From: Nitrosopumilus sp. Nsub
GTDB lineage: Archaea; Thermoproteota; Nitrososphaeria; Nitrososphaerales; Nitrosopumilaceae
Direction: 5' to 3'
Length of the DNA: 52,337 bases
Assembly (NCBI RefSeq): GCF_001541925.1
Contig: NZ_LQMW01000026.1
Span: 1 to 52,337, forward strand
Notes under the pieces: generated by a model
Told to the model about the DNA's origin: nothing
The model's input: only the letters and a program-made list of their open reading frames with translations
The model's database searches: none
Shown here: in pieces, positions 40,913 through 51,838 of the stretch
Layout: every line of letters starts with the position of its first letter
Numbering within the stretch: the first letter of the stretch is position 1
Position numbers and translations under genes: made by a program

Positions 40913-40973
40913 AAATTAAATTTTTTAAAAAATTACTCATAAGACATCATTAAAAGAGATTGTATTCAAAATA

Positions 40974-41000
40974 ATGCAGTGTATTCCTGATTGTTATAAC
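40974..41000 (+). promoter_or_regulatory. Promoter block P1 (13-mer + TATA)
   Basis: ATGCAGTGTATTC (40974-40986), six bases, then GTTATAAC (40993-41000). The last base of the 13-mer is 36 bases before the ATG at 41022. The identical 13-mer lies at the same distance before the gene at 51509. Confidence 0.6.
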
Positions 41001-41021
41001 ATATTTTAACATATTTTATTC

Positions 41022-41150
41022 ATGGATACAATTCCTTTGATCATGGACATGGTCAGCATACTTTCTACAACTGCAGCAGGAATATTGGTAGTTTATTTTG
41101 TAAAATCAATTTTTGCAGATAAAAAAAGAACAATTCAAAATAATTTTTGA
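41022..41150 (+). CDS. Small single-pass membrane protein, 42 aa
   Basis: MDTIPLIMDMVSILSTTAAG and the following ILVVYFVKSIF form one membrane helix; the tail ADKKRTIQNNF is basic, so N-out/C-in is predicted. ATG at 41022, TGA at 41148. It has a P1 promoter block and shares the ATTTTATTC-ATG leader with the gene at 51509. Unknown role, but the promoter class links it to the amoC-proximal genes. The gap 41151-41434 contains AT-rich DNA and the palindrome AGAGCGCTCT; nothing else is clear. Confidence 0.6.
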   Translation: MDTIPLIMDMVSILSTTAAGILVVYFVKSIFADKKRTIQNNF

Positions 41151-42562: not shown

Positions 42563-43081
42563 TCATCTAACTGTAACTAATCCTACTCGCCATGGGTGTA
42601 ATGAACAAAAGTAATTGTAAACACCTTCTTCAGTAAATTTGAATTCAAATGTTTCACCTGACTTTAGGGGTGCACTATTGAATAATCCAATAATTTCTCC
42701 AAACTCATCTTGACTTTGAACTGTATGTAAAACAATATCATTATTTATCCATTGGACTGTTGTCATAGGACGAATTTCCAAATTTAATGGTAAGTAAACA
42801 TTTCCACCAGAAACAACATAATTTCCATTAGGAATTATAATTTGTTCCAATTGATTTCGTTTAATTGGCTCATTCTTTTCCAAAACAAGGATATCATTTT
42901 CAATCAAAAATTTAATTGAATTAAGAAATTCTGTTTCAGTAATATGTCCTTGACCATACCATAATGCATTATTTTTTATCCAGGCAGGCACATTTTCAGC
43001 ATTTACAGAACTTGTGGATAAAGAAATTAGAATTAAAACTGAAATTGAAAAGAAGACTAATTTTAGATTCAAATTTTTCAA
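42563..43081 (-). CDS. Secreted cupredoxin (plastocyanin-like) protein
   Basis: 172 residues, TTG start at 43081. A signal peptide (LVFFSISVLILISLSTSSVN AENV) is followed by the thaumarchaeal secretion-linked domain PAWIKNNALWYGQGHITETE and a cupredoxin domain (about 95-172). Likely copper ligands are His in DIVLHTVQS, Cys in YNYFCSLH and His of that motif. The usual axial Met after HP is replaced by HPWR. Such blue-copper proteins are proposed electron carriers of ammonia oxidation, acting in the pseudoperiplasm. Promoter block P6 and a TATTTCGAAATA palindrome lie upstream; a wHTH regulator is divergent. Confidence 0.85.
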   Translation of the reverse strand: MKNLNLKLVFFSISVLILISLSTSSVNAENVPAWIKNNALWYGQGHITETEFLNSIKFLIENDILVLEKNEPIKRNQLEQIIIPNGNYVVSGGNVYLPLNLEIRPMTTVQWINNDIVLHTVQSQDEFGEIIGLFNSAPLKSGETFEFKFTEEGVYNYFCSLHPWRVGLVTVR

Positions 43082-43097
43082 GATAAGCCTATTTCGT

Positions 43098-43109
43098 TAT
43101 TTCGAAATA
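43098..43109. promoter_or_regulatory. Palindromic operator candidate in a divergent promoter
   Basis: TATTTCGAAATA is a perfect 12-bp palindrome overlapping the downstream end of the cupredoxin TATA box (43106-43113). It lies between the cupredoxin gene and the divergent winged-helix regulator, a position suited to repression by that protein. Confidence 0.4.
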
Positions 43110-43132
43110 TAACAAATTGGAATACATTGCAA
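43106..43132 (-). promoter_or_regulatory. Promoter block P6 of the cupredoxin gene
   Basis: Minus strand TTGCAATGTATTC (43132-43120), six bases, then GTTATATT (43113-43106). The 13-mer-TATA spacing equals that of P1 to P5. Distance from 13-mer to start codon is 39 bases instead of 36. Confidence 0.55.
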
Positions 43133-43179
43133 TACTTTGCAAACATCAGTATTATAACTAATTTGGAAATAGTTTATCC

Positions 43180-43530
43180 ATGCTAGACTTAATTCAAACA
43201 AAAAAAATCACAGAAGAAGAAAGAAAGCAGGTAATTTTAGAAAGCCTTGCAGATAGATATTGTAAATTAATTTTAAAAAATACGCTTGAAAAGCCCAAAT
43301 CAGCAATGAATATCTCCCAAGAAGAAGAAATTCCTCTAAGTACAGTTTATCGAAAATTACAAAAACTATATGATGGAAAATTGTTGGCAATCTCAGGGTC
43401 AATTAACAGAGATGGGAAAAGATATTTTCTTTATATGAGTAAAATTCGGGAAATAAACATACATTGTGATTTAATGGACACAAAAATTGATTGTGTTTTA
43501 AATAACACAAAACAAGAAGACATCAATTAA
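43180..43530 (+). CDS. Winged-helix (ArsR-like) transcription regulator
   Basis: 116 residues. The N-terminal helix pair is followed by SLADRYCKLILKNTLEKPKS AMNIS, recognition-helix segment EIPLSTVYRKLQKLYDGKLL and wing ISGSINRDGKRYFLYMSKI. The fold is that of ArsR/TrmB-like regulators. A C-terminal tail has CDLMDTKIDC, two cysteines that could sense metal or redox. Divergent from the cupredoxin gene, so control of that gene is plausible. Confidence 0.8.
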   Translation: MLDLIQTKKITEEERKQVILESLADRYCKLILKNTLEKPKSAMNISQEEEIPLSTVYRKLQKLYDGKLLAISGSINRDGKRYFLYMSKIREINIHCDLMDTKIDCVLNNTKQEDIN

Positions 43531-50287: not shown

Positions 50288-50500
50288 AATTTAAAATGTA
50301 TCAAAATTTTAGGCACAAATACAAAAAAACAAGCAATAATCAGCAATTACCCATTTTGATTATTAAAAAATAAAAATTCTTCATTGTCATTAAAATTATG
50401 AACTCTACAGTAGATTAAATTAGAATTATTACGGATTTCTTTCAATAGTTATTAAAACAATGGAATTTTTACTTCCTTTGACATGATTTTTTAATTTTTA

Positions 50501-50527
50501 GTGCAGTGCAATCATACCTTTTATCTT
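50501..50527 (+). promoter_or_regulatory. Promoter block P2
   Basis: GTGCAGTGCAATC (50501-50513), six bases, then TTTATC as TATA. The 13-mer ends 36 bases before the ATG at 50549. Confidence 0.55.
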
Positions 50528-50548
50528 CAGTATTTTTTTCTGAAATTT

Positions 50549-50761
50549 ATGACTTATTGTGTTGGAAAATGTAAAGAGTACAAGGCACTCAAACCCACAG
50601 GAGTGGGAAGATATGCAATGGGACAAAAAAGATGTAATTTTTGTGAAATTTTTATTGAAATTGATAATATTTTATGTCCTTGTTGCAATAGTCAATTGAG
50701 ATGTCTCCCTAGAAGCAGAAAAGGAAAAGAGCAATACCATTTACATTTACAAAAAAATTAA
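50549..50761 (+). CDS. Small Cys-rich zinc protein, 70 aa
   Basis: From the ATG at 50549: MTYCVGKCKEYKALKPTGVG. It holds CVGKC, then KRCNFCEIFIEIDNILCPCC and LRC, enough for two zinc sites. The C-terminal tail is basic (RSRKGKEQYHLHLQKN). It may bind nucleic acid. The end overlaps the convergent gene by four bases. The P2 promoter block decides the start: ATG falls 36 bases after the 13-mer. Confidence 0.65.
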   Translation: MTYCVGKCKEYKALKPTGVGRYAMGQKRCNFCEIFIEIDNILCPCCNSQLRCLPRSRKGKEQYHLHLQKN

Positions 50762-51003
50762 TCAAATTTTGGAATAAAGTAATTTTTATAACATTTCTTT
50801 GAACAAAATTTACTTCCGACAAATTCGTAGGATTGGCCACATGTAATGCATTTATTTTTTTTATCCACATCCCATTTTACATCATAAGCTATAATTTGCA
50901 GTTTTTCTGAATCTTTTATTTTACCCCATTCAAATTCATCATGCCCAATATTTTCACCATCATTTCTATTCCACGGGTTTTTTGGAATTTTATCAATATC
51001 CAT
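50758..51003 (-). CDS. Zinc-knuckle protein, 81 aa
   Basis: The N-terminal half is polar (KIPKNPWNRNDGENIGHDEF). The C-terminal half has CITCGQSYEFVGSKFCSKKC, a C4 knuckle similar to MYND/treble clef. Unknown function. Promoter block P3 lies 36 bases upstream. Confidence 0.65.
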   Translation of the reverse strand: MDIDKIPKNPWNRNDGENIGHDEFEWGKIKDSEKLQIIAYDVKWDVDKKNKCITCGQSYEFVGSKFCSKKCYKNYFIPKFD

Positions 51004-51024
51004 AAATTTTCACAAAAAAAATAA

Positions 51025-51051
51025 CTAATAAAAAAGAGGATTACAATGCAC
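51025..51051 (-). promoter_or_regulatory. Promoter block P3
   Basis: Minus strand GTGCATTGTAATC (51051-51039), six bases, then TTTATTAG (51032-51025). The last base is 36 bases before the ATG at 51003. Confidence 0.55.
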
Positions 51052-51123
51052 CCTTTTTATTAAATTCTAGAATATAGAATTGTTTAAAAAAATAATTAAA
51101 AGAAATGGGAATAACCTTTTAGA

Positions 51124-51384
51124 TTATTGCCCTTTGTTTTTTTCATATTCAGCTCGTACTTCAGCTGCCATTTCTGCAAATGGGTCTTCATGCCATTGCT
51201 CTTTGTTTAAATCAGCTCCCAGCATACCTGTTTTAGGCAAAATGCCTTGCTCTGCGGCAGCAGCCTTTACTGAATCCTCTTGTACGTAATTTGCTTGATT
51301 TGCAGTTCCATATGCAATAGCACCTGCCATAGCAAGTACACCTACTGCAATTCCTGCAATCACTATCATTGTTCGTGACGCCAT
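51124..51384 (-). CDS. Single-pass membrane protein near amoC, 86 aa
   Basis: Residues about 6-26 form one helix (MIVIAGIAVGVLAMAGAIAY), preceded by MASRT. The extracellular or pseudoperiplasmic part is acidic and helical (EDSVKAAAAEQGILPKTG; EQWHEDPFAEMAAEVRAEYE). Topology N-in/C-out is predicted. GC content and codon choice (GCA, GCT rich) suggest high expression. Archaeal ammonia monooxygenase contains extra small membrane subunits (AmoX, AmoY, AmoZ); the closeness to amoC makes a relation thinkable, but I cannot match it. Promoter block P4 is 36 bases upstream. Confidence 0.7.
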   Translation of the reverse strand: MASRTMIVIAGIAVGVLAMAGAIAYGTANQANYVQEDSVKAAAAEQGILPKTGMLGADLNKEQWHEDPFAEMAAEVRAEYEKNKGQ

Positions 51385-51405
51385 GAATTAATTTTCGTTT
51401 TTCAG

Positions 51406-51432
51406 TATTAATCATCTAAGACTCTATTGCAA
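51406..51432 (-). promoter_or_regulatory. Promoter block P4
   Basis: Minus strand TTGCAATAGAGTC (51432-51420), six bases, then GATTAATA (51413-51406). The last base is 36 bases before the ATG at 51384. Confidence 0.55.
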
Positions 51433-51460
51433 GACAATGTATGCATATAATAGAAATCTC

Positions 51461-51487
51461 ATGCAGTGTATTCTTACTAGATAAATA
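51461..51487 (+). promoter_or_regulatory. Promoter block P5
   Basis: ATGCAGTGTATTC (51461-51473), six bases, then GATAAATA (51480-51487). The last base of the 13-mer is 36 bases before the ATG at 51509. P4 and P5 are divergent and 29 bases apart. Confidence 0.6.
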
Positions 51488-51508
51488 AATTAATTTAAAA
51501 TTTTATTC

Positions 51509-51838
51509 ATGACTGTAGAGGCACAATATGATCAGTTTATCGCAATTCTCAATCAAACAATAAAAAATGTAGATCCAGATTTACTTGTTAGAATGATGTA
51601 TTTGGAACGAAAACTACCAGATGCCCCTCCTAGAGTTGAATTAAATATTCACTACAAACCAAATGTAGATGCTGAAAGAAAAAAAGAAATCTTAAGGAAC
51701 AGATTTGGATTTCCAAATCAATCAAATGATCATGGAATTAATGTAGTAGGTAAAATGGATACGAGTGTTGTGGAACAATTTTCTCAAGATCCAGATGTGG
51801 AGTACATCACAGGCATTGCAACTCCTTCATCATATTAA
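51509..51838 (+). CDS. Conserved hypothetical protein, 109 aa
   Basis: Soluble alpha/beta protein: DQFIAILNQTIKNVDPDLLV, PRVELNIHYKPNVDAERKKE, GFPNQSNDHGINVVGKMDTS and DPDVEYITGIATPSSY. Alternating strands and helices resemble a ferredoxin-like fold. No family recognised. It has the P5 promoter block and is divergent from the small membrane protein gene. Confidence 0.65.
   Translation: MTVEAQYDQFIAILNQTIKNVDPDLLVRMMYLERKLPDAPPRVELNIHYKPNVDAERKKEILRNRFGFPNQSNDHGINVVGKMDTSVVEQFSQDPDVEYITGIATPSSY

Follow-up and report, generated by a model that had tools for sequence, protein, structure and literature searches.

The contig of Nitrosopumilus sp. Nsub analysed here (52,337 nucleotides, referred to as the window) carries several small genes beside amoC with similar upstream regions, and the question raised by this locus is whether these genes share a regulatory element and, if so, which protein reads it. 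A sequence-only reading had pointed to five 13-mers at a fixed distance from start codons and had proposed a regulon with either an activator site or a special TFB site abutting BRE/TATA. The five 13-mers were found as reported (Table 1), each ending exactly 36 bases 5' of an ATG and each followed, after six intervening bases, by a TATA-like octamer that occupies -29 to -22 of the start codon. In the window, TGCANTRNANTC occurs at -47 before 5 of the 410 ATGs that open ORFs of at least 40 aa, while at 299 other upstream offsets it never occurs more than once per offset (8 in all). This pattern was derived from these same sites, so that the window count is a consistency check only, and the independent tests weigh more.

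Table 1. Elements and genes of the proposed regulon (window coordinates; E values of sites are those of the 39-column model)
Feature	Coordinates	Strand	Remarks
Site 1 element and TATA	50492..50530	+	13-mer 50501-50513, before ORF 50549; E=1.1e-6, best in the genome; in training set
70-aa Cys-rich (zinc-ribbon-like) protein, proposed target	50549..50761	+	ORF
Site 2 element and TATA	51022..51060	-	13-mer 51039-51051, before ORF 51003; E=0.019; in training set
81-aa protein	50758..51003	-	N-terminal GH(T/D)xxEWG family, C-terminal CxxC treble-clef-like
Site 3 element and TATA	51403..51441	-	13-mer 51420-51432, before ORF 51384; E=0.036; in training set
86-aa protein, one predicted N-terminal membrane helix	51124..51384	-	ORF
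Site 4 element and TATA	51452..51490	+	13-mer 51461-51473, before ORF 51509; E=1.1e-3; in training set
109-aa soluble protein (MYLERKLPD family), near amoC	51509..51838	+	ORF
Site 5 element and TATA	40965..41003	+	13-mer 40974-40986, before 42-aa ORF at 41022; E=1.4e-3; in training set
Sixth site, cupredoxin gene promoter	43103..43141	-	held-out; E=2.7e-6, second best in the genome; score 31.2, offset +3
172-aa secreted blue-copper (plastocyanin/azurin-type) protein, proposed target	42563..43081	-	Pfam Copper-bind 6.1e-7, above curated cut-off
Weak in-register element upstream of the regulator gene; overlaps the cupredoxin element of the opposite strand	43123..43161	+	score 9.9, best position offset 0
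116-aa ArsR-like winged helix-turn-helix protein, candidate regulator	43180..43530	+	A2 profile E=1.3e-55; AF2 fold; co-occurrence

Searches beyond the window were performed with exact patterns and with a 39-column model that does not contain the start codon, run on whole genomes, for which sites 1-5 were part of the training set. This 1.38-Mb genome contains four exact matches to the ATG-spaced pattern, all in the window, site 3 being off by one base; when two mismatches were allowed the matches were mostly coding, and the relaxed pattern was set aside. Across 151 genomes of the family, TGCANTGNANTC-N35-ATG gave 125 matches versus 3 for the reversed control. About half of the 125 are promoters, and the remainder include one recurring coding stretch (TGCANTGAANTC...GATGAAAAACATG) that accounts for many of the exact family matches and was left out. 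Among the genes downstream of the promoter-like half, that of a 110-aa winged-helix protein is the most frequent, alongside relatives of the window genes at sites 1-4. With the ATG-free model, this genome yields eight sites. Seven lie in this contig, where the one before the gene at 43180 (+) is weak. The eighth, C18:42177 (-), has a model E of 3.6e-5 and was outside the training set, as was the match at 43106-43141 (-). One further match, C5:21775 (E 0.014), falls within a coding gene and was taken as a chance false positive, and the remaining matches in this genome are noise (E 0.47 or worse).

A genome-wide scan and a comparison of orthologous promoters had been suggested as checks on the proposed regulon, and its core reading, in which a site of activator type next to BRE/TATA of leaderless genes defines a regulon, stood up to both. 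In 46 congeneric genomes 102 sites were found at E<0.01, against approximately 0.5 expected. The gene at 50549 has orthologues in 34 of these 46 genomes, and at all 30 congeneric loci compared the best site falls within 0 to +3 of the expected position, with a strong score in 29. Regulator loci were picked by protein similarity alone, which left 79 usable, and in all 79 the best upstream site is at offset 0, +1 or +2. A score of at least 15 is reached in 74 of the 79, with 61 sites at 0, 12 at +1 and 1 at +2, while the best motif score inside the regulator genes is 1.4. The core of the putative DNA switch is therefore considered real and, judged by sequence, conserved across the Nitrosopumilaceae, a family of ammonia-oxidizing archaea. 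In three other families of the order the motif gave matches at noise level only (best 0.002, in one genome), the element is absent from the outgroup winged-helix homologues examined (families f2 and f4), and none of the 27 pattern matches in viral contigs lies at the correct distance before an ORF. With about 2-12 sites per genome, the regulon is small and is no general promoter class.

The 13-mer is real as a conserved unit, but the repeat to which it belongs is longer, and the 13-mer covers only its proximal half. An alignment of 55 promoter-like sites of the family gives the full consensus TGCAN-TGCAN-TGCAN-TGCAN-TC-N2-ACT-N2-TTATAT, which spans -57 to -23 relative to the start codon, with TGCAN units at -57, -52, -47 and -42, TC at -37/-36, ACT at -33 to -31, TTATAT at -28 to -23 and C or T at -1. 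The TGCAN pentamers, four at most, follow one another 5 bp (half a helical turn) apart and end at -38, and the TGCA array stops 7 bases before TATA, leaving TATA and the start free. Bases outside the search pattern are conserved too, at -57 to -49 and at -33 to -31. In 75 distinct regulator promoters G is found at -51 and -41 and C at -55, -45 and -36, so that the invariant bases extend from -55 to -36, i.e., 8-28 bases upstream of TATA, which begins at -28. The bases of the BRE region differ from those of 137 generic promoters of the same loci (at TATA-6, A in 10% versus 56%), which is in keeping with a BRE that may need help, although it is no proof of it.

The distance of 36 bases holds for all five window sites, but not as a rule, given that it varies from 34 to 39 in relatives with a second mode at 37; the distribution is narrow and has its mode at 36. 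Indeed, 86 of 100 held-out sites with a score of at least 20 are followed by an ATG ORF (at least 35 aa) that starts between -2 and +3 relative to expectation, 37 of them at 0 and 32 at +1, versus a mean of 0.8 ATG ORFs per offset at other offsets of the same set. Because TATA occupies -28 to -23 and a pyrimidine stands at -1 in 94% of the 75 regulator promoters, we infer that the transcripts are leaderless; in the 50549 family, up to three leader bases seem to be tolerated.

The sequence-only reading was right about its five sites and missed three others, namely the sixth site at 43103-43141 (-), the weak copy at 43123-43161 (+) and the one on contig C18. At the sixth site the transcription start is expected at 43084, and the cupredoxin gene has a TTG start at 43081. 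The candidate regulator gene is divergent from the cupredoxin gene, and both promoters use one TGCA array. Although the regulator's own site is weak in this genome, most relatives score 15-50 at the same position; it is also found in genome G001 (score 29.9, offset 0), and the second regulator copy, on contig C18, is preceded by a strong site at offset 0. The promoter of the regulator itself is the most widely conserved site.

The AlphaFold (AF2) model of the candidate regulator is a winged helix with a pLDDT of 83, and its closest PDB folds are of the ArsR/SmtB type (SrnR, NolR, 2p4w and CzrA), with a best Foldseek E of 2e-3, which is a moderate match. A PDB sequence search with the regulator was weak (best E 0.007), and the profiles of the ArsR/SmtB family remain below their curated cut-offs (HTH_20 18.1 and 24.6 versus 27; HTH_metalloreg 20.2 versus 55). 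The homologues share one near-conserved Cys at position 28, replaced by Ser in some, with no conserved Cys pair, and no conserved metal site was recognised in the regulator family.

To relate the element to this protein, 40 genomes of the family were searched with the motif and with a regulator profile, a close regulator being defined by E<=1e-39. The motif (E<=0.01) is present in 23 of the 24 genomes with a close regulator and in none of the 16 with distant paralogues only (best 0.019). Within the genus it is found in 22 of 22 genomes with the regulator and in neither of the two without, which gives 0 of 18 for family and genus genomes lacking the regulator. Both states occur within each of the genera g1, g2, g6, g14 and g17, pointing to losses. 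When the sites beside the regulator are excluded the numbers become 14/24 versus 0/16 (Fisher p=1e-4, not corrected for phylogeny). These counts are phylogenetically non-independent and partly reflect autoregulation, and the co-occurrence may follow genome streamlining.

Across the family, the putative targets are the regulator, the cupredoxin, small proteins rich in Cys, a membrane protein with a single helix, the soluble protein of the 51509 type and secreted EEYDF-type proteins. Of the genes behind the five sites, the one behind the site at 40974 is the least certain, its 42-aa ORF having no homologue among the loci fetched; this ORF may be no gene. The 50549 protein has no Pfam or NCBIfam match, and this type of Cys-rich 70-aa protein forms a multi-copy family of up to approximately 12 copies per genome for which no Pfam/NCBIfam model exists. 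In most other genera the 50549-type gene lacks such a promoter, indicating that the regulon turns over. For site 2, strong elements precede c2-type relatives in other genera; for site 3, elements of 25-38 bits precede 14 relatives; and the element of site 4 is also found before relatives in loci L039, L083, L106, L170, L201 and L202. In 11 of 80 named loci, 51509-type homologues adjoin the regulator gene by tblastn, and 38 of 80 regulator loci have a cupredoxin homologue in their flanks. The 51384 protein has the right size for AmoY and one predicted membrane helix, and its gene lies near amoC; identity with AmoY is not claimed, and no amoZ-like neighbour of this gene was seen. The amoC gene itself is truncated by the contig end (52078-52337, -), and its promoter lies outside this contig.

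Several further observations were made at these loci. The secreted target proteins of L139, L162, L203 and L210 share an EEYDFVAGIxxExTFxFRxGxETVNFPVFSTTS domain. In L106, an 84-aa one-helix protein (61-315, +; MSLPLFNMVNLITVADPLETAF...) is encoded upstream of the 51509-type gene and might be an AMO subunit. In other species, the Cys-rich ORFs of 43 and 37 aa in L061 and L092 have elements at the exact spacing and are probably unannotated genes. In yet another species, L170 (G174:C1:1550300-1552900) has three elements (1741-, 1248- and 698-) beside amoC, of which one precedes a more distant winged-helix paralogue and one has no obvious ORF at the right distance, possibly serving a small RNA or an unannotated small protein. 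A second element without a clear ORF lies 400 b downstream of the 51509-type gene in two species (L201 at 1087+ and L202 at 1047+).

We propose, with a probability of roughly 75%, that a small regulon is controlled through these sites as operators. Its most likely transcription factor would be the ArsR-like winged-helix protein, acting as an autoregulated activator upstream of BRE/TATA at leaderless genes. Two dimers of this protein would bind opposite faces of the TGCAN array, directly upstream of BRE/TATA, which is the simplest geometry because units spaced by 5 bp alternate helix faces. The bound regulator would help TBP/TFB onto a promoter with a BRE region unlike that of other genes, and transcription would begin at the start codon or at most 3 bases from it. 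The regulator's targets would be its own gene, often the divergently oriented cupredoxin gene, and a few genes for small proteins that are secreted or Cys-rich. As for the signal, the most plausible guess is the redox or copper status of the electron chain of ammonia oxidation; only the neighbours and the cupredoxin target hint at ammonia or copper supply, and a role around the copper/redox proteins of ammonia oxidation is likewise a guess. The picture in its entirety, in which a family-wide autoregulated activator of the Nitrosopumilaceae holds TBP/TFB on leaderless promoters through two opposite-face dimers on a half-turn TGCAN array and switches the cupredoxin and small amo-linked proteins by the redox/copper state of ammonia oxidation, is tentative and more doubtful than not.

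The same winged-helix protein might instead bind the array as a repressor of its own and other promoters, given that proteins of the ArsR/SmtB type are mostly repressors and that autoregulation is typical of repressors. This is unlikely, since the array ends 7 bases before TATA and leaves TATA and the start free, the BRE region is atypical, and the archaeal activators described so far bind upstream of BRE; activation rather than repression is thus favoured by position and precedent. EarA and TFB-RF1 are activators that recruit TFB and whose sites adjoin weak BREs on the upstream side (PMC5512572, PMC10665913, PMC5937170), and as in systems of the EarA/TFB-RF1/Ptr2 kind the array lies directly upstream of BRE/TATA at near-fixed spacing. 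EarA, the archaellum activator of Methanococcus and Pyrococcus, is also a small archaeal regulator with repeated short sites in this position and is thought to bring TFB to a weak BRE (PMC5512572, PMC10665913). However, the EarA site is TACATA and its target the archaellum operon, as opposed to TGCAN repeats and other targets here, and P. furiosus arlB0 in the EarA system has a 30-nt leader, unlike the predicted leaderless transcripts here; EarA and the candidate regulator are likened by the arrangement of their sites. TFB-RF1 (PF1088, Pyrococcus furiosus) likewise has its site just upstream of BRE/TATA and acts at the promoter of its own operon (PMC5937170), but it uses the palindrome TCTG-N5-CAGA, absent here, in two binding regions without a tandem half-turn array. 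The predicted fold, size and proposed autoregulation of the candidate resemble those of ArsR/SmtB-type regulators (NolR, SrnR, CzrA, SmtB and the P. furiosus heat shock regulator 2p4w). It differs in that known members are mostly repressors placed over the promoter, in having no recognised metal site and in scores below the family cut-offs.

Somewhat less probable still is that another DNA-binding protein reads the element and that the winged-helix gene is merely a target, lost together with the regulon. Co-occurrence does not separate target from reader, and the regulon holds other DNA-binding candidates, such as the distant winged-helix paralogue in L170 and L207. Nonetheless, the winged-helix promoter is the most widely conserved site, and this protein is the only DNA-binding protein seen to be common to all motif-bearing genomes. 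The other option of the sequence-only reading, in which a special TFB paralogue recognises an extended BRE, would agree with the several TFB paralogues of ammonia-oxidizing archaea and with the fixed position of the element relative to TATA. It is nevertheless improbable: the element extends approximately 28 bases upstream of TATA, with its invariant bases 8-28 upstream, whereas a BRE comprises the 6-7 bases adjoining TATA (PMC5512572), the palindromic TGCA repeat resembles the operator of a dimeric regulator, and the presence of the element tracks one winged-helix gene. Chance or an AT-rich compositional artefact has a negligible claim, for although the pattern is short, was picked post hoc in one 52-kb window and has relaxed matches often in coding sequence, this explanation is refuted by held-out conservation and all independent tests are against it.

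A motif common to the upstream regions of a gene set has been described in another ammonia-oxidizing archaeon. In copper-limited Nitrososphaera viennensis, which belongs to another family, a set of genes that includes one of the ArsR type shares the motif TTCSGSMTTTGWACYANT, located between -35 and -70 relative to the start codons (Reyes et al., PMC7785015); this motif occurs in either orientation, and its consensus is unrelated to the present element. For the six amo genes of N. viennensis, no obvious common promoter motif is reported (Hodgskiss et al., PMC10030591). No description of the regulon proposed here was found in the open-access literature.

Ammonia-oxidizing archaea are globally important, and genetics in them is hard. 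Among transcription-factor regulons of these organisms, the one proposed here is probably among the first to be traced. In one package that can be tested without genetics, using a 13-kDa protein and short promoter fragments, it brings together a candidate regulator, the DNA code it would read and the genes it would control. The position-fixed promoter map may also serve for predicting the starts of leaderless genes. For the biology of the family, it would place in one circuit several conserved proteins annotated without function, some of them encoded beside amoC.
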